Source: Acidobacteriota bacterium
GTDB lineage: Bacteria; Acidobacteriota; Blastocatellia; Chloracidobacteriales; Chloracidobacteriaceae
Direction: 5' to 3'
Length of the DNA: 64,000 bases
NCBI GenBank assembly: GCA_016208495.1
Contig: JACQXX010000030.1
Location: 1-64,000, forward strand
The position numbers and the translations under genes were made by a program. Positions 4,735 to 41,612 of this stretch are shown here, piece by piece (position 1 is the stretch's first letter; every line of letters begins with the position of its first letter). Below the pieces are notes generated by a model that saw nothing but the letters and a program-made list of their open reading frames with translations, was not told the DNA's origin and made no database searches.

Positions 4735-5463
4735 TTACTCCTTGTGGGCCTCGTCAGAGGGCTTCTCGGTGGCGACAACCTGCTCCTTATGGATTTGGCG
4801 GTAGCGTTTTTGAGCAGCGATGGCTTGTTCCTGGTGTTCCTGGTAGTAGTGCCGGTGATAGGCGGCGATTTCTTCCTTGTGCGTCTCGCGGTAGCGTTTT
4901 TGGGCAGCGGCGATTTCTTCCTTGTGCGTCTCGCGGTAGCGTTTTCGGTAGGCGAGGCGAGCTTCCCGATGTGCCTCGTAGGATCGTTTGTTGTGGGCGG
5001 CTTCAGCTTCTTTATGGGTCGCGGCATAGCGCCGGCGTGTTTCCTGGTGCTGGTCACGATTGGTCGCGCGCCAATCGCGTGCCAGTTCTGCCGCTTGCTG
5101 CCGAGCACAGTCCCGACACCGAAAATCAAAGCCGTCAAGGCTCGTCGGCTCACGCGTGAACTCCGACACCGGCTTCGCCTCACGGCAGTGAGTGCAGACT
5201 TTATAGTCACAGACCGGACACCGGCGGGGTTGAAAATTGGGCGGATTGGGTTTCTTCGGGACGCCTCTCGGTATCCGACGGCGGGCGAGATATTCCCGTT
5301 GTCGGTCAGCGCGACAGGTCTTGCATTCCACCTGGAGGCCGTCGATGGCGCGCTTGTCCGGGTAAAAGTCGGCGGGTGGTTTGGCCTGCTCGCATTGGGT
5401 GCAAACTTTGATCTGGCAATTGGGACAAATTCGGTGGCACCGTTTTCTGGTCGTGACGCTCAT
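4735..5463 (-). CDS. Zinc-ribbon protein with 15-residue charged repeats (paralogue A)
   Basis: The N-terminal third holds two CxxC-rich modules (ICPNCQIKVCTQC ... CKTCRAD and CPVCDYKVCTHC ... CRDCARQ). These resemble the metal-binding segments of phage endonuclease-VII/HNH-like proteins. The C-terminal half is a tandem array of about 15 residues per unit (KRYRETHKEEIAAAQ and variants), predicted as a long charged helix. The frame extends to a GTG at 5508. The ATG at 5463 is preferred because AGAGG lies about 8 bases upstream and it avoids overlap with the neighbour. The next gene upstream is a paralogue with the same repeat type. Nucleic-acid binding is plausible, but no catalytic HNH is visible. 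Confidence 0.65.
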   Translation of the reverse strand: MSVTTRKRCHRICPNCQIKVCTQCEQAKPPADFYPDKRAIDGLQVECKTCRADRQREYLARRRIPRGVPKKPNPPNFQPRRCPVCDYKVCTHCREAKPVSEFTREPTSLDGFDFRCRDCARQQAAELARDWRATNRDQHQETRRRYAATHKEAEAAHNKRSYEAHREARLAYRKRYRETHKEEIAAAQKRYRETHKEEIAAYHRHYYQEHQEQAIAAQKRYRQIHKEQVVATEKPSDEAHKE

Positions 5464-5504
5464 TGGTGAAAACCTCTTCAAGTCATTGGATTCAAAGGAA
5501 TGGG

Positions 5505-6263
5505 TCACCCGGATGAGCCATCATTCCGGCTGCCGGTTTCCTCAATTGCCGGCGGTCGAGTGCGGGCTTCGGTTCGCTGGCGTTGGCGGCGCTCGGCTAT
5601 CGCGTCCTTGTGGGTCGCATAGTAGGTCTGGTTGTAGAGCCGCCGGCGGTCACGGTCAGCCTCGGAGCCCTGCCGGGCGCGGGCCTGGATTTCTTCCTTG
5701 TGGGCTACGTAATACTGCTTTTCGCGCGCCGTAACTTCGGCGCGGTTGATCTCACGGTGGTGCTTGCGGCGGGCCAGGATCGTCTCACGATGGGTTTCGT
5801 AATACTCCCGCTGCCGGGCGGCAATCTCCACCTGGTGCGATTCGCGATAGAGCTGGCTCGCCGCCCGGCAGCGGTCGCGGTTCGCCGCGCGGTAGCGGCG
5901 ACGGCGGTCGCGGTTCGCTTCCCGGTTCGTCGCCGCGTGGGTTTGGGCATACCGCCGCGCCGCTGCCCGCCAACGGTCGCGGTCAGCCTCGGAGGCCTGC
6001 CGGGCGCGGGCCAGGATTTCTTCCTTGTGGGCCGCGTAATACTGCTTTTCGCGCGCTGTGACTTCGGCGTGGTTGGCCTCGCGGTGGTGCTTGCGGCGGG
6101 CCAGGATCGCCTCGCGGTGGGTTTCGTAATACTGCCGGTTGCGAGCAGCGGCCCGCACTTTGCGGAGCTCGTCGTCGCGCCGAACCGACGCACACTGTGG
6201 ACAGTCGTCACGTCCGCAATCGGGACACATTTCGGAAACCTGGGTTCGGGTGGGACTGCTCAT
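5505..6263 (-). CDS. Zinc-ribbon protein with 15-residue charged repeats (paralogue B)
   Basis: Starting at the ATG at 6263, with AGGAGAG eight bases upstream, this protein has one CxxC pair (CPDCGRDDCPQC) followed almost wholly by repeats such as YYETHREAILARRKH and YYAAHKEEILARAR. A block of about 100 residues appears twice with few changes (YYETHREAILARRKHHRE and YYETHRETILARRKHHRE copies), suggesting internal duplication. It precedes paralogue A by 41 bp in the same direction. The Arg/Ala-rich composition and high local GC differ from neighbouring genes. No enzyme motif is seen; a coiled-coil or nucleic-acid-binding scaffold is the most that can be proposed. Confidence 0.6.
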   Translation of the reverse strand: MSSPTRTQVSEMCPDCGRDDCPQCASVRRDDELRKVRAAARNRQYYETHREAILARRKHHREANHAEVTAREKQYYAAHKEEILARARQASEADRDRWRAAARRYAQTHAATNREANRDRRRRYRAANRDRCRAASQLYRESHQVEIAARQREYYETHRETILARRKHHREINRAEVTAREKQYYVAHKEEIQARARQGSEADRDRRRLYNQTYYATHKDAIAERRQRQRTEARTRPPAIEETGSRNDGSSG

Positions 6264-10402: not shown

Positions 10403-11875
10403 ATGCTGCGCGCTGTTTGTCAAAGCCAGAGGTACGTTGTTTGTCTCGGTCTTCTGTTGTTTCTGAGTGGACGGATGCTGATTTCGGTGAAATCAACTCG
10501 TGCGCAGACCGTTCAGCTTTCGGTGGTCAATGGCAGCGGCAACCCAGTGGTGACACCTGGGCAAACCGTCCATATCTGGGCAAATGTCCACCTGCCTGGA
10601 CAGGTGTTTGAGCGGTGGGAGGGAAACTCCGAACTGCTGGCCGACCCGCTGGCAGCCCATACGACACTGGTGATGCCGGCCAGAAGTGTTGAGCTAATCG
10701 CCCGCTTCAAACCAGCGGCTGAGTGGACACCAACCGAAGAGCGGATTAACGACAGCCGGGTGTTTTCTTATTTTCCCCAACCCCATCGTGGCGTCATCAC
10801 CTTCTATCATGGAACTGGCGGGAATGCCTCCAGTTGGACCGATGGTCGTGGTGCCCCGGAAAATCTGCTCTTTTGTCGCGATGCTGTGGCGGCTGGGTTT
10901 GCAATTGTGGCGACTGAAAGCCAGAACCGGGTGGATAAACAATGGAGCAACCGTGGGACCAACAATGGCGACGTCGAAAACGTCCAGACCATTTTAGAAA
11001 CGTTCAAAGCACGTGGTGAAATGCGCCCTGAGGCTCCGGTATTTGCCGTTGGAATGTCAAACGGCGGAGGATTTTCACCGCTCGTCTCTGCCCTGCTTGG
11101 ATTTCGGGCCACAGCTATTTTTTGTGCCGCCGGGTACGACTCTGTGATTGAGCAAACTCAGGTTCCGACCATCTGGTGTCTGGCTGAAAATGACGAGGTG
11201 GTCAAAAACACCGACGCAGTTACCAATTTTAGAGCCCTGAGCGGCAGAAATATTTCAGCAGAGCTCTACACCAATGCACCGTCTCCGGTTTTTCCGCTCC
11301 GCTTTGCCCGGATCGAAGGCATGGGCGAAGCCGATTCAACCGAGTTTTATAACCGGCTCAAAAACAACGGGTTTCTCGATGACCAGGGTTTCCTGAAAGA
11401 ATCGCCGGCAACCTCAAACTGGGAGCGGCTTTTGGGTGAATTCACTCCGTTTCGCAATGGCATCGAAGACGAACTGAGTGTGTGCCGTGCCAATCACAAA
11501 TTCTTCAGCGATGTAAATCATAAAGCCCTGCTGTTTTTCCAGCGAGCCACCACCGGTGACACAGAAAGCCCGGTTGTGTCAGAGGCTCGCACCTCAAAAG
11601 GGAAAGTCATCCGCAAAAAAGATGCCACCGTGACCATTACCTGGCGTTCAACTGACAATGTTGGGGTTGAATCTCAGGATCTGGCCTTCGCTGGGGACGG
11701 GGCAACCTTTACCACGCCTGTGGCTTCTGGATTGACAGGAAGCACACAATCGTTTTCCTGGTCAATCCCCACCAATCTGGCAAAAACCAAGACAGGCCGG
11801 TTGAGAGTTCTCGCTCGGGACACAGCGGGTAACAGCGGTGAAGCCACCACTGACGGGGTATTGATCATTCGATGA
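10403..11875 (+). CDS. Secreted esterase-like alpha/beta hydrolase with Ig-like domain
   Basis: Residues 1-35 form a signal peptide. A beta-rich domain with RWEGNS and VELIARFKP follows, resembling the repeat domains found next to secreted hydrolases. The alpha/beta-hydrolase core has an oxyanion HGTGG (136-140), the nucleophile elbow GMSNG (Ser219) and an acidic candidate in LAENDEVV (Asp264). It resembles polyhydroxybutyrate-depolymerase/feruloyl-esterase (LpqC) type enzymes. The C-terminal ~90 residues are an Ig-like/FN3-like beta domain with DNVGVES. A start with AAGGAT 9 bases upstream supports 10403. A perfect terminator follows. Substrate is unknown. Confidence 0.75.
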   Translation: MLRAVCQSQRYVVCLGLLLFLSGRMLISVKSTRAQTVQLSVVNGSGNPVVTPGQTVHIWANVHLPGQVFERWEGNSELLADPLAAHTTLVMPARSVELIARFKPAAEWTPTEERINDSRVFSYFPQPHRGVITFYHGTGGNASSWTDGRGAPENLLFCRDAVAAGFAIVATESQNRVDKQWSNRGTNNGDVENVQTILETFKARGEMRPEAPVFAVGMSNGGGFSPLVSALLGFRATAIFCAAGYDSVIEQTQVPTIWCLAENDEVVKNTDAVTNFRALSGRNISAELYTNAPSPVFPLRFARIEGMGEADSTEFYNRLKNNGFLDDQGFLKESPATSNWERLLGEFTPFRNGIEDELSVCRANHKFFSDVNHKALLFFQRATTGDTESPVVSEARTSKGKVIRKKDATVTITWRSTDNVGVESQDLAFAGDGATFTTPVASGLTGSTQSFSWSIPTNLAKTKTGRLRVLARDTAGNSGEATTDGVLIIR

Positions 11876-11904
11876 CCCAGGTGCCAATCGTTTTCCTTCG
11901 TTGT

Positions 11905-11942
11905 GCTCTGTGAGATTTCAGCCATCTCACAGAGCTTTTTTG
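11905..11942 (+). terminator. Rho-independent terminator
   Basis: A perfect 12-bp stem (GCTCTGTGAGAT at 11905-11916, complement at 11924-11935) with a 7-base loop is followed by six T residues. It ends the esterase transcript. Confidence 0.9.
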
Positions 11943-11993
11943 TATTCAGGCCCGCGCTCAATATCCGTCAGAAATGGTTCAAAATCACAGAGC

Positions 11994-12023
11994 TTTCACC
12001 CTATCGGCAAGCCATGCTAGAGT
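11994..12023 (+). promoter_or_regulatory. Candidate sigma-70-type promoter
   Basis: TTTCAC (11994-11999), an 18-base spacer and TAGAGT (12018-12023) lie upstream of the small periplasmic protein. The ATGCTAGAGT context recurs in the promoter at 27116-27144. Confidence 0.45.
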
Positions 12024-12140
12024 GCGGGGTTCTCTTCCAACCTTGAATTTCTTCATTTTCTTATAACTGATTGGGTTGAATAACCCTGAAATTTGAAAGC
12101 TAAAAACGGCCCTGCCGTTGACATAGAGGAGTTTTTTGCA

Positions 12141-12518
12141 ATGCGTTTGACCAAATTTTTGATGACCGGAATGATGTTGATGGTCCTACTTGTCGGAGGC
12201 TTTTCGCCAGTACTGGCCGCCGCCGCCTTTCAAACCAGCGGCCCCAACCTGACAGTGGTTGAATCAATGAAGACCAAACTGTCACTTACCCCCGACCAGG
12301 CCACCAAAATCAAAGACATTCTGACCAAAAGCTATGAGCAATCTGAAAAAGACCGGGCTTCGGCGGCTGGAAATAAAGAAGCGTTCAAAAAGCTGAACAA
12401 AACCCGGAAAAAACAAACCAAAGAACAAATCAAAGCAGTTCTGACCCAGGATCAAATCGCGAAGTTTGATCAGGTCAAGTCTGATTTGAAATCTGCCTTG
12501 AAACCGAAAAAAGCGTGA
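12141..12518 (+). CDS. LTxxQ-motif (Spy/CpxP-like) periplasmic protein
   Basis: A 125-residue protein with a signal peptide (about 1-28, ending near VLAAAAF) and a short all-helical mature part. Two motif-like stretches, LSLTPDQATKIKDIL and LTQDQIAKFDQV, match the LTxxQ pattern of Spy/CpxP-type periplasmic proteins. In Enterobacteria these act as chaperones or stress regulators; here the role is inferred. The C terminus is lysine rich. The start at 12141 is chosen because GAGGAG lies 8 bases upstream and it gives a clean signal peptide; the frame continues upstream to 12093. It is transcribed alone. Confidence 0.75.
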   Translation: MRLTKFLMTGMMLMVLLVGGFSPVLAAAAFQTSGPNLTVVESMKTKLSLTPDQATKIKDILTKSYEQSEKDRASAAGNKEAFKKLNKTRKKQTKEQIKAVLTQDQIAKFDQVKSDLKSALKPKKA

Positions 12519-12570
12519 GAGCCGGGACTGAAAACGTCGGGCTGAAGACTTCGGGCTCAGGGCTTGGGGC

Positions 12571-12739
12571 CATAAGCGCCAGGATAAGGAAATGTGAGCC
12601 TGTTTGAGACAAGGAGCTGGGGAGACACGGAGACAAGGAGATCCTCCGACCGACGTTGGGAGCGGGAGAATATTTTTTCTCCTTGTCCGCTTGTCCCCTT
12701 GCCCAGATCGGGTTCTGTTTCCTTATCCTGGCGCTTATG
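12571..12739. repeat. 169-bp element with perfect 22-bp terminal inverted repeats
   Basis: CATAAGCGCCAGGATAAGG(AAA) at 12571-12592 is exactly complementary to 12718-12739. The interior has further near-palindromic AGACAAGGAG/CTCCTTGTC segments. No coding content. It resembles a MITE. Confidence 0.75.
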
Positions 12740-35576: not shown

Positions 35577-35848
35577 ATCTGAGTACCTTACCATTTTATC
35601 CAGGAGATTTCAGCCCTGGCTTTTTTGAACCACCGAAGACACAGCGACATTTTTTGTTTTCTCTGTGTCCGCTGCGGTGAGCGTGTGTTTGATCTCAGAT
35701 CGAGTTCACAGTAACGTCTCATTTTGTTTTGTAATGAATTATAACAAATACAAGGTGTATACGGATTTGGGGAATTCTTCACCACTTGCAGTGTGTGCTA
35801 CATTTGAAAACCAACTCCCAGAAAGCTTTCAATACCAGGAAAAAGACC

Positions 35849-37042
35849 ATGACCAAAGCAAGCGCCACAGATCACCGCTTATTGCAGGAAATCACCCTGC
35901 GCAACGTGTTGTCATTCGGCCCACAAACCGAGACTTTGCCGATGGAAAACCTGAATGTGCTCATTGGGCCGAATGGCTCAGGTAAATCAAATCTGATTGA
36001 AACAATTGCACTTATGCGGGCTGCTCCTGGAGATATGGCTGCTGTTATTCGTCGAGGCGGTGGTGTTGAAGAATGGATTTGGAAGGGAAACAAAACAGGG
36101 ACTGCAACCATTGATATGGTACTCAGATATCCGCACGGAAAACAACCAATCAGGCATGTGATTGAATTTCGTGAGAATAATCAACGCTTTGAATTTGAGG
36201 ATGAACGAATTGAGAACAAAGCTCCTTTTGGGAGAGAAAAGGAGACTTACTTTTATTATCGTTTTCAGCAAGGTCGCCCAGTAATGAATATGGCTGGAAA
36301 TAAGAAACGACCACTGGCACGGGAAACCATCAACCCAAACCTATCAATTTTAGCTCAACGCCGTGATCCAGAACTTTACCCAGAAGTATCTTATCTGGCT
36401 GAAGTTTATGAAAAAATAAGGCTTTATCGAGAGTGGGCTTTGGGGCGTAACACTATTTTTCGGGAGCCACAGAAAACGGATACCCGAGATGATCGCCTTG
36501 AAGAAGATTTTTCCAATCTTGGGATATTTTTAAACCAACTTCGCCAAACTGCCGACGCTAAAATCGCAGTCTTAGAAGCACTGAAGGATCTTTACACTGG
36601 AATCACTGATTTTGACATCAATATTAAAGGTGGCAGCACAGTGCAAGTGGTTTTGACTGAAGGTGGATTCACCATTCCAGCCACACGGTTGTCAGATGGG
36701 ACACTCCGGTATTTGTGTCTGCTCGCTATTTTGTGTGCTCCGACACCCCCGCCGTTGATTTGTATTGAAGAGCCTGAACTGGGTCTCCACCCAGATATTT
36801 TGCCAGACCTGGCTGACCTTCTCGTTGAAGCATCAAATCGAACCCAGCTCATTGTGACCACACATTCCGATATTCTGATTGACGCTTTGACTGAACATCC
36901 TGAATTTGTCGTGGTGTGCGAAAAACACAACGGTCAGACTGAAATGAAACGACTGAATCAAGAAGATTTAACTGAGTGGCTGGATAACTACCGACTTGGA
37001 CAGCTTTGGATGACAGGTCAGATCGGAGGAACTCGATGGTAA
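35849..37042 (+). CDS. AAA family ATPase (AAA_21, OLD/SMC-like), partner of DUF4276 protein
   Basis: A 397-residue ABC-class ATPase with Walker A GPNGSGKS (40-47), signature LSDGT (281-285), Walker B LICIEE (303-308) and the switch TTHSD (337-341). This is the AAA_21/RecF-like arrangement seen in OLD nucleases, PARIS, AbiL and other defence ATPases. No TOPRIM domain is fused; the next gene probably supplies it. ATG 35849 with AGGA 9 bases upstream is preferred over 35786. Its stop overlaps the next start by 7 bases, indicating translational coupling. A phage-defence or DNA-maintenance role is inferred from this pairing. Confidence 0.85.
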   Translation: MTKASATDHRLLQEITLRNVLSFGPQTETLPMENLNVLIGPNGSGKSNLIETIALMRAAPGDMAAVIRRGGGVEEWIWKGNKTGTATIDMVLRYPHGKQPIRHVIEFRENNQRFEFEDERIENKAPFGREKETYFYYRFQQGRPVMNMAGNKKRPLARETINPNLSILAQRRDPELYPEVSYLAEVYEKIRLYREWALGRNTIFREPQKTDTRDDRLEEDFSNLGIFLNQLRQTADAKIAVLEALKDLYTGITDFDINIKGGSTVQVVLTEGGFTIPATRLSDGTLRYLCLLAILCAPTPPPLICIEEPELGLHPDILPDLADLLVEASNRTQLIVTTHSDILIDALTEHPEFVVVCEKHNGQTEMKRLNQEDLTEWLDNYRLGQLWMTGQIGGTRW

Positions 37043-37635
37043 AGGCCATAATTTTTCTTGAAGGTGGTGGTGATTCAAATGAACTGAAGAGCCGCTGTCG
37101 GAAAGGATTTCATAAACTTTTAATCAGTTGTGGTTTTACCAACCGCCTCCCTACCTTAAAACCTTGCGGTGGCAGGCATAGGGCCTTTGATCAGTTCAAA
37201 ACCGAGGTCAAAAAATCCAACTATGATTTTGTCGGTTTATGGATTGACAGCGAAGACCCATTGGACGACCTTGAAGCCACCTGGGAACACTTGCTGAACC
37301 GTGACAACTGGGAAAAACCTGAAGATGCCACTGATGGTCAGGTACTTTTTATGACAACGTGCATGGAAACCTGGATTGTGGCTGACCGGGAAACACTGAA
37401 AAAACACTTTGGGAGTGACCTTCAGTTATCAGCACTTCTGCCGTTGAAAAAGCTTGAAGAACGCACTCGCAAAGAAGTTTTAGAGAGCCTGGAACACGCA
37501 ACTCGCAATTGCTCAAATGCTTACAAAAAAGGAAAGCGGTCGTTTGAAATTCTTGGAAAATTGTCACCGACTGTTTTAGAACACCATCTGCCCAGCTTTG
37601 TTCGAGTTGTGAGGATTCTCAAAGATCAACTTTGA
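37036..37635 (+). CDS. DUF4276 family protein (TOPRIM-like)
   Basis: A 199-residue protein beginning IIFLEGGGD (Glu9), with CGGRHRAFDQFK, WIDSEDP (71-75), FMTTCMETWIVAD, EHATRNC and YKKGKRSFEILGKL. This order matches DUF4276 proteins, whose Glu and DxE/DSE residues are those of a TOPRIM metal site. GGAGGA lies 6 bases upstream of ATG 37036, inside the ATPase gene. Such proteins are usually encoded directly after an AAA_21 ATPase. In related two-gene systems the TOPRIM partner is a nuclease or RNase effector held by the ATPase. Catalysis here is untested. Assignment by eye, moderately sure. Confidence 0.75.
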   Translation: MVKAIIFLEGGGDSNELKSRCRKGFHKLLISCGFTNRLPTLKPCGGRHRAFDQFKTEVKKSNYDFVGLWIDSEDPLDDLEATWEHLLNRDNWEKPEDATDGQVLFMTTCMETWIVADRETLKKHFGSDLQLSALLPLKKLEERTRKEVLESLEHATRNCSNAYKKGKRSFEILGKLSPTVLEHHLPSFVRVVRILKDQL

Positions 37636-39485: not shown

Positions 39486-40154
39486 ATGAAACCAGGATTT
39501 TCAAGAATCGAGCAAAAGTATATGGATCAAAACCATCTCGATGAAGTCCTGTTACACACGGCTGGTGCCATCGTGCGCCACCAGAGTCCGTTTCACGACC
39601 TGCCGGTTTTGACCAGGTTGACTCCAATGAACCACGACCAACTGTTGTACTGGGTGAAACCCTTTTATATGACTGACTTACAATCTGAAGAATTTGCTGA
39701 ACGGTTTCTGCCTGTCCGCAATGAAATCACGATTGACCTGGTGAAAGAGTTGCTCGCTCAATTCAACTGGCGACCTCGCCTTGTAGCAGCAATGTTTGCC
39801 GCTATTAAAAATTATGGACTGCTGGAAATCCCTATCGGCTATCTTTTGCTCCGCAGTGATATGTGTTATGCCGGAAAGGGATACTGTCTCGCACTAGCAA
39901 CCTTTAATACTACGGAATCAGTTGATTTTCTGACACACTATCTTGATTATTACTTGAAACAGAAAGATTTATGGTATGACCAGGGAGAAGCAATGGGGGC
40001 AATCGCTTATCTTGATCAACAAAACGGAACGAATGTTCTAGCTCAATTCCTGCCAGCCTGGGAAGAATTCAATGCGAACAAACACTGGAATTTAGATGAC
40101 CATCTCCGGCGGTTTGCTGAACAGATGAAAGCCATCCGGCGGTTGAGAGATTAA
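39486..40154 (+). CDS. DUF6000-like protein
   Basis: A 222-residue mainly helical protein with RPRLVAAMFAAIKNY, EIPIGYLLLRSDMCYAGKGY and a C-terminal YLDYYLKQKDLWYDQGEAMG segment. This resembles DUF6000, a family of unknown role seen in many bacteria, sometimes near contact-dependent or immunity-type genes. I recognise it only from memory of the pattern. The start is uncertain: ATG at 39486 or ATG at 39522, neither with a good ribosome-binding site. It lies just upstream of a Dbr1-like phosphoesterase and a GrpB gene on the same strand, forming a small cluster of accessory genes. Confidence 0.55.
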   Translation: MKPGFSRIEQKYMDQNHLDEVLLHTAGAIVRHQSPFHDLPVLTRLTPMNHDQLLYWVKPFYMTDLQSEEFAERFLPVRNEITIDLVKELLAQFNWRPRLVAAMFAAIKNYGLLEIPIGYLLLRSDMCYAGKGYCLALATFNTTESVDFLTHYLDYYLKQKDLWYDQGEAMGAIAYLDQQNGTNVLAQFLPAWEEFNANKHWNLDDHLRRFAEQMKAIRRLRD

Positions 40155-40181
40155 AGTTTGTCACACAGTGAAAACAATGCT

Positions 40182-41006
40182 ATGGAAAAGCCATTTTATT
40201 TCGGTGCCGTCGGAGATGTTCACGGAGAAATGCAGCGTATGGTTGCCCTGCTCTCAGGTATGGAGAAAAAGCGGGGCATCCAGATTGAATTCGTTCTGCA
40301 AGTTGGAGATTTCGAACCCCATCGCGACGAACAGGACCTCCAAACCATGGCCGCGCCGTCCAAATATCGTGATTTGGGTGATTTTCACCATTATCATCAA
40401 GGCTGGCAATCCTTTCCCTGGCCGATTTATTTTATTGGCGGCAATCACGAACCATATGGCTACCTGGACCAGTTTCCACAAGGCGAATGGTTGACTGAGA
40501 ATTGCCGCTACCTTGGCCGCTCAGGATGGCTCGAACTTGATGGCGGATTTACCATTGCTGGTCTGTCCGCAATTTACAATTCGGACTGGTTTTCTCAACC
40601 TCGACCTGACGTGAGTTTGTTTGGGACGATCAGCAATAAGTCGTTTATTTACTTCAATGAATCAGACCTTCAATTGCTCCTGGGTCTTGAGCGAAACATT
40701 GATATCCTGCTGCTCCACGAATGGCCTGCCAATATCATTGACCCAGCCGACCAGGCTGAATTTGAGCAGGCCCGCCGAAGCATGCGCTATGACTGCGTTG
40801 GAAACGAAATGAGTGAGATCGTCATGCACTGGCTATCACCGAAACTGGTTTTGTGCGGTCATATGCACAAAAAGTACCGGCGGCAGCTTCAATCCTCAAA
40901 AAATGAGGCCATGACTATCTGCTGTCTGGCCAATGTCCATCAGGGCACTGAGTCGGTAGCGATCTTCGAAGCGAATCAGGACGGCGAGATCAACGAAGTT
41001 CAGTAA
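40182..41006 (+). CDS. Dbr1-like calcineurin-family metallophosphoesterase
   Basis: Motifs for a dinuclear metal centre are complete: GDVHGE, GDF, GGNHE, LLHEWP and GHMH. Between them VGDFEPHRDEQDLQTMA, APSKYRDLGDFHHYHQG and YFIGGNHEP resemble the eukaryotic RNA lariat-debranching enzyme Dbr1 at the same positions, as does the following RYLGRSGWLEL and GLSAIYN. Dbr1 cleaves 2'-5' branches of lariats. One difference is Asp in GDVHG where Dbr1 has Cys. Its substrate in this bacterium is unknown. A TTG at 40158 is an alternative start. It lies between the DUF6000-like and GrpB genes. Confidence 0.75.
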   Translation: MEKPFYFGAVGDVHGEMQRMVALLSGMEKKRGIQIEFVLQVGDFEPHRDEQDLQTMAAPSKYRDLGDFHHYHQGWQSFPWPIYFIGGNHEPYGYLDQFPQGEWLTENCRYLGRSGWLELDGGFTIAGLSAIYNSDWFSQPRPDVSLFGTISNKSFIYFNESDLQLLLGLERNIDILLLHEWPANIIDPADQAEFEQARRSMRYDCVGNEMSEIVMHWLSPKLVLCGHMHKKYRRQLQSSKNEAMTICCLANVHQGTESVAIFEANQDGEINEVQ

Positions 41007-41048
41007 GAGGGTTGAAATTTGACAACTGTTCGGAAAGGGGGTTCTCTG

Positions 41049-41612
41049 ATGAAGAAAAACCTTGAGCAGCGGATTGTCGAAGTGATCCGCGAAGAAATTG
41101 ATCTATCGCCATACAATCCCGACTGGCCGCGCTTGTTTGATCTCGAAGCCGCCTTTCTGCGCAATTTTTTGCCGGAAGGGTCCCTTGGCCGCATTGAACA
41201 TTTCGGCAGTACGGCGGTTCCAGGGCTGGTTGCCAAACCGATTGTTGATTTGCTCGTTGAAGTCCGAAGCCTGACCGAAGCCCAGCAACTCATCGCTCCG
41301 GCGCTGGAGTCTCAAGGCTACGACTACTTCTGGCGGATTGATGTTTCCCCACCCTATGCGTGGTTTATCAAGCGCAATCTGGAAGGCAAACGTACTCACC
41401 ATCTCCATCTGGTCGAAGCCGATTCGATCCTCTGGGAACGGCTTCTGTTTCGTGATTACCTGCGCGAAAATCCTGACATTGCCTGTCAATATGCCAGCCT
41501 CAAACGCCTTCTGGCAGAACAATATCCAGCCGACCGGATTACTTACACAAAAGGCAAAACCGAATTTGTTATTAAGGCTACTGAACAGGCTAAAAGCTTT
41601 TATAATCAATAA
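41049..41612 (+). CDS. GrpB family protein (UPF0157, nucleotidyltransferase fold)
   Basis: A 187-residue protein with the GrpB signature YNPDWPRLFDLEAAFLRN, EHFGSTAVPGLVAKPIVDLL, and a C-terminal DRITYTKGKTEFV. The GSTAVPGL segment is the nucleotidyltransferase-fold GS motif, with D in the following IVDLLVEV as acidic partner. GrpB proteins are widespread and of unknown substrate. AGGGGG 8 bases upstream of ATG 41049 fixes the start; the frame itself opens with a TTG at 41019. It follows the Dbr1-like gene after 42 bp on the same strand, so both may share a transcript. Confidence 0.85.
   Translation: MKKNLEQRIVEVIREEIDLSPYNPDWPRLFDLEAAFLRNFLPEGSLGRIEHFGSTAVPGLVAKPIVDLLVEVRSLTEAQQLIAPALESQGYDYFWRIDVSPPYAWFIKRNLEGKRTHHLHLVEADSILWERLLFRDYLRENPDIACQYASLKRLLAEQYPADRITYTKGKTEFVIKATEQAKSFYNQ

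Follow-up and report, generated by a model that had tools for sequence, protein, structure and literature searches.

The window, by which we mean the whole stretch of 64,000 nucleotides of Acidobacteriota DNA that was analysed, carries on its forward strand a gene for a protein related to Dbr1, the enzyme with which eukaryotes open the 2'-5' branches of excised introns. The gene, its two immediate neighbours and the parts of the coding sequence that matter for the comparison with Dbr1 are as follows.

39486..40154, + strand: DUF6000 protein, the upstream neighbour, which ends 27 nt ahead of the ATG
40182..41006, + strand: Dbr1-related calcineurin-like metallophosphoesterase, 274 aa, starting with ATG (alternative in-frame TTG upstream at 40158)
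40203..40226, + strand: metal site 1, GAVGDVHG, with Asp12 at the position of Dbr1 Cys14 and His14 equivalent to Dbr1 His16 in the alignment with EhDbr1, the Entamoeba enzyme
40305..40370, + strand: GDFEPHR to MAAPSKYR, with metal ligand Asp43 (Dbr1 Asp45) and Tyr62 (Dbr1 Tyr64)
40431..40451, + strand: FIGGNHE, with Asn88-His89 (Dbr1 Asn90-His91)
40566..40652, + strand: insert that matches the lariat-recognition loop of Dbr1 in size and position (about 28 residues); it has a conserved RPxxxxxxxxSNKxxxY pattern of its own and no Arg158
40707..40727, + strand: LLLHEWP, with metal ligand His179 (Dbr1 His180, HDWP)
40854..40871, + strand: CGHMHK, with metal/phosphate ligands His227 and His229 (Dbr1 His230 and His232)
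41019..41612, + strand: GrpB-family protein, the downstream neighbour

The DUF6000 and GrpB neighbours are absent beside all of the relatives that were fetched. Further upstream in the window (35786-37635) there is an AAA ATPase and DUF4276 pair, which PADLOC matches to the candidate defence system HEC-01A/B (585 and 214 bits).

Domain annotation says little about this protein. The only Pfam match is Metallophos (1.2e-10) and an NCBIfam search gave nothing significant, as one would expect of an ordinary calcineurin-like phosphoesterase whose likeness to Dbr1 is just superfamily background. However, this generic reading is contradicted by both profile and fold searches, and we reject it as having hardly any chance of being right. 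A phmmer search against all PDB chains is led by five EhDbr1 sequences (1.9e-32 to 1.1e-30), with CWF19L1 second (6e-4 to 2e-3) and Mre11/Rad32 next (0.35). With a profile built on 36 relatives, Dbr1 scores 1.9e-54 and CWF19L1 6e-15, and no phosphoesterase beyond these two is reached up to E=0.1. An AlphaFold2 model of the 274-residue protein (mean pLDDT 95, pTM 0.93) was used for a fold search, which returned Dbr1 at 3.8e-25 (TM 0.84), CWF19L1 at 4e-17 and LpxH next at 5e-8; this places Dbr1 17 orders of magnitude ahead of the first match that is neither Dbr1 nor CWF19L1. The likeness is real, specific and far beyond chance, and sequence, profile and fold all bear out the claim of the first-pass annotation that it goes further than the common phosphoesterase motifs.

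Two other groups of known proteins help to place the new one. The N-terminal domain of CWF19L1/Drn1, a spliceosomal paralogue of Dbr1, is the next-best relative by fold and profile; it has lost metal ligands (e.g. GANNQE where the window's protein has GGNHE), whereas the 274-residue protein retains them. Generic bacterial metallophosphoesterases, such as LpxH, SbcD and Rv0805, have the superfamily fold and the DxH...GD...GNHE...H...GHxH pattern in common with it, but are very distant: the fold search reaches LpxH only at the value given above, and the profile detects none of them. Within the metallophosphoesterases the protein belongs to the Dbr1 branch, as a bacterial member.

With Dbr1 itself (Entamoeba, human and yeast; PF00149 plus PF05011) the protein shares its fold, at an identity to EhDbr1 of 27% in a structural alignment and 33% in a sequence alignment of the phosphoesterase domain. 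Both have Tyr64, the HD/EWP motif and, save for one position, the full set of metal and catalytic residues; the protein also has an insert at the loop position. The blocks that had been singled out as marks of Dbr1 are all present (MAAPSKYR, FHHYHQG, FIGGNHE and YLGRSG). Across an alignment of 76 relatives, in EhDbr1 numbering, the equivalents of Asp45, Asn90, His91, His180, His230 and His232 are invariant and that of His16 is nearly so; position 64 is Tyr in 62/76 rows and position 182 is Trp in 75/76. Lys63, Arg50 and Gly210 are retained as well, as is the HD/EWP motif. Counted with its two flanking residues, the loop insert measures 29-31 in most of the window's clade, compared with 31 in EhDbr1 and 22-29 in the actinobacterial rows, most of which have a somewhat shorter insert. 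The Dbr1 arginine at position 158 is lost.

Unlike Dbr1, the protein has Asp in place of Cys14, an invariant Dbr1 residue of the alpha metal pocket, and belongs to a bacterial host that has no spliceosome. The replacement of Cys by Asp had been noted at the outset; the motif reads GDVHGE here, and all relatives agree (Asp in 74/74 rows with a letter at position 14). Only about 45 residues remain past the GHMH motif before the C-terminus, and Pfam finds no match to PF05011, the DBR1 C-terminal domain, which in a control matched a human Dbr1 sequence at 108 bits. Judged by its sequence, the protein is thus a bacterial relative of Dbr1 rather than Dbr1 proper, because it lacks two defining features, Cys14 and the C-terminal domain. 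The original reading survives as far as the overall likeness, the Dbr1-type residues and the loop-sized insert are concerned; strict identity with Dbr1 is not supported, with Cys14 changed to Asp and both Arg158 and the C-terminal domain gone. Asp is the residue found at position 14 in nearly all other superfamily members. In EhDbr1 the mutations C14A and C14S, deletion of the loop and deletion of the C-terminal domain each abolish complementation in vivo (PMC4176325). A working two-metal site with Asp at position 14 is nonetheless plausible by analogy, since Asp is usual in the superfamily and the EhDbr1 tests covered only these two substitutions.

The family is sparse but widely spread in bacteria. 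A clear relative is found in 8/297 Acidobacteriota genomes (11 match at E<=0.001), and among named genomes there are at least 80 loci, from Myxococcus, Corallococcus, Archangium, cyanobacteria, Sulfidibacter, Holophagae, Pleionea, actinobacteria, archaea and others. One of these hosts, Comamonas sp. KCTC 72670 (L020), has a Myxococcus-like sequence and neighbours in a 9 Mb genome, and the name looks wrong. Collections of phages, plasmids and IMG/VR contigs were essentially empty of the Dbr1-like gene. A viral origin was rejected on this ground; the one clear match (L094) lies on a contig with BREX genes.

We built two trees to place the bacterial clade. The first has 44 rows, among them human and yeast Dbr1 sequences whose letters were checked by their PF05011 match only; in it the bacterial clade joins Dbr1 and CWF19L1 and is set apart from the other bacterial phosphoesterases that were tried (91/95). 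A second tree, without these human and yeast sequences, is more weakly supported (83/56 for bacteria plus EhDbr1). The trees differ on whether the bacterial clade is sister to Dbr1 alone or to Dbr1 plus CWF19L1 (p-AU 0.39). The comparison with Dbr1 and generic phosphoesterases, which had been put forward as the way to check the assignment, therefore favours the grouping with Dbr1 and CWF19L1 and leaves the inner order dependent on the tree. A giant-virus Dbr1 was sought for this purpose and not found.

Across phyla no conserved gene neighbourhood exists, a possibility that we considered and dropped. Some individual loci have suggestive neighbours. In Pleionea (L034, 5274-8822) the Dbr1-like gene is preceded by two RNA ligase genes with one for an AAA_33 kinase-like protein between them, an arrangement that resembles an RNA-repair cluster, and the same locus has a HEC-01A homologue nearby (11500-12663). 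A DEAD-box helicase gene adjoins the relative at five myxobacterial loci (L016, L017, L021, L024 and L033), with a DbpA RNA-binding domain by Pfam in L016. On the IMG/VR contig (L094, 3172-8768) a distant Dbr1-like gene with the Dbr1-type motif GDFQAVR comes directly after BrxL of a BREX-like cluster. Such neighbours are limited to single loci or to one clade, and they fit RNA repair or defence.

Retrons are bacterial immune elements whose DNA product is held by a 2'-5' branch of the same kind as the one that Dbr1 opens. The first-pass annotation had reported no branched substrate in view; this is true for the window, but the genome does contain a type XIII retron with msr-msd on another contig. 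There, on contig C70, we find a reverse transcriptase (RT) with NAxxH, YADD and VTG motifs that PADLOC identifies as RT_XIII (663 bits). Two accessory proteins are encoded upstream of it, one of them with WGR/HEAT repeats, and both recur in other type XIII loci. Between the accessory genes and the RT lie two strongly folded elements in tandem (region z-score -13).

L146 (G000:C70), 5041-5230: first of two tandem msr-msd-like elements upstream of one type XIII RT
L146 (G000:C70), 5353-5545: second element, with the same flanks and a different hairpin

Across type XIII loci from Acidobacteriota, Cyanobacteria, Gammaproteobacteria and Archangium, a 5' part of about 75 nt and a 3' part of about 40 nt are found again, and the hairpin that they enclose differs. 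This layout is that of a retron msr-msd; the elements and their branch nucleotide are putative. Two such elements are likewise found in another genome (G014, L148). A second RT of the window's own genome (G000:C168, L096/L097) has an extra stretch inside the RT domain and is near a Cas1-like protein; it is probably CRISPR-associated. We use the label type XIII as assigned by the PADLOC model; from that match and the usual classification, the Mx162-like group is probably the type XIII retrons. The myxococcal RTs Mx162, Mx65, Sa163 and Ne144 have been grouped with cyanobacterial RTs, and the msr and msd of a retron are joined by a 2'-5' bond (PMC6868368).

The distribution of the two genes suggests a connection. 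A type XIII RT is present in 27/50 genomes that carry the Dbr1-like gene, made up of 27/37 in the full-loop clade, whose genomes span four or more phyla, and 0/13 among the actinobacterial relatives. The background is 1-6%: 4/297 Acidobacteriota (>500 bits), 16/273 Cyanobacteria (>450 bits) and 6/274 Gammaproteobacteria. In these same sets the Dbr1-like gene occurs 8, 2 and 2 times, with 2, 2 and 2 genomes holding both. All three two-by-two tables lean the same way, with a stratified exact p=1.6e-8 that is uncorrected for phylogeny and p=0.005 when the genomes chosen as centres are left out; these statistics allow only roughly for genome size and a shared lifestyle. The p-values overstate the evidence, because related genomes are not independent and the Myxococcus genomes seen always have both genes. 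Among gene-bearing cyanobacteria 7/12 have a type XIII retron, against about 5% overall and, by an estimate from a partial list, about 12% among large genomes.

The reverse association does not hold. Most genomes with a type XIII retron lack the Dbr1-like gene (14/16 in Cyanobacteria), and therefore the retron does not need it. Conversely, 10/37 full-loop genomes have the gene and no type XIII retron. None of these ten has a retron-like RT at E<=1e-20, and therefore no link to other retron types is seen. Nor is there an RT within 8 kb of any relative; the gene lies outside the retron operon in every locus examined, so that it is no retron accessory protein by operon membership and co-occurrence is the only connection.

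Group II introns are another source of branched molecules, and they occur above cutoff in 6/10 of the type XIII-negative full-loop genomes, with one more just below; the other three have no detected source of branched nucleic acid. The protein could then be a debranching enzyme mainly for group II intron lariats, its link with type XIII retrons being incidental to large, retroelement-rich genomes. The fold and residues do suit a branched RNA substrate, and introns are above cutoff in 19/50 gene-bearing genomes, including 5/5 examined cyanobacteria that have the gene and no type XIII retron. However, introns are common in Cyanobacteria, most gene-bearing Myxococcus and Corallococcus genomes have none above cutoff, and the group II model (RF00029) has no match in the window's own genome. 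We regard this explanation as improbable.

A further alternative is that a phosphoesterase of the Dbr1 fold has turned to some other substrate, such as linear 2'-5' or cyclic nucleotides, or works in RNA end healing or defence signalling. Such a change would be marked by the Asp in place of Cys14 and by the loss of the C-terminal domain, and the absence of Arg158 speaks for it as well. So do a weak match to the PADLOC candidate PDC-S10 (2.3e-8), the distant relative that follows the BREX gene and the HEC-01 pair upstream in the window. Against this, the clade keeps Tyr64 and an insert of recognition-loop length, which a generic phosphodiesterase would not need, and the generic phosphoesterases are much more distant than Dbr1. 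We consider a change of substrate rather unlikely.

Because its best-conserved relatives tend to co-occur with retrons across unrelated groups, the protein may instead be a bacterial debranching enzyme. We give about even chances to the best-supported proposal, made by analogy with Dbr1, that it works as a 2'-5' phosphodiesterase, here on the branch of type XIII msDNA and elsewhere perhaps on group II intron lariats. Two metals would be held by Asp12, His14, Asp43, Asn88, His179, His227 and His229. The branch-point base would be stacked by Tyr62 and His14, much as Tyr64 stacks it in Dbr1, and His89 would protonate the leaving 2'-oxygen, as proposed for Dbr1 with His91 as the catalytic acid (PMC4176325). 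The likeliest natural substrate in this genome would be the RNA-DNA branch of the type XIII msDNA, whose retron is the proposed source of branched molecules and which would be cleaved in trans; hosts that have no type XIII retron may offer group II intron lariats. In vitro, the 2'-5' link in retron RT-DNA is a substrate of DBR1 (PMC8989520), and therefore such chemistry is within reach of the fold. The neighbours that work on RNA, namely the RNA ligases and kinase-like protein of Pleionea and the DbpA-type helicase of Myxococcus, point the same way. Counting against the proposal are the lack of Arg158 and of the two features that EhDbr1 needs in vivo, Cys14 and the C-terminal domain, together with the lack of linkage to an RT and the existence of both retron-only and gene-only genomes. 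Myxococcal msDNA has been isolated in branched form (PMC6868368), so any debranching would have to be partial or regulated. For the biological role we infer either msDNA turnover or a tuning of the retron.

We found no report of a bacterial debranching enzyme in the literature searched, and Dbr1 is described as the sole known enzyme that selectively hydrolyses the lariat 2'-5' linkage (PMC10470207). The full picture, in which bacteria have a Dbr1-type debranching enzyme of their own that uses the superfamily's usual Asp and acts in trans on the type XIII msDNA branch, so controlling or recycling an immune element, is one that we offer tentatively, as less likely than not. If true, it would provide a turnover route for retron msDNA and group II lariats, hint at a means by which retron immunity might be set or reset, and supply a natural counterpart with Asp against which to compare Dbr1 and its Cys14, so far unexplained. 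It would also bear on the origin of the eukaryotic debranching enzyme, and debranching by the Dbr1 fold would then be older than the spliceosome or have arisen in parallel with it.
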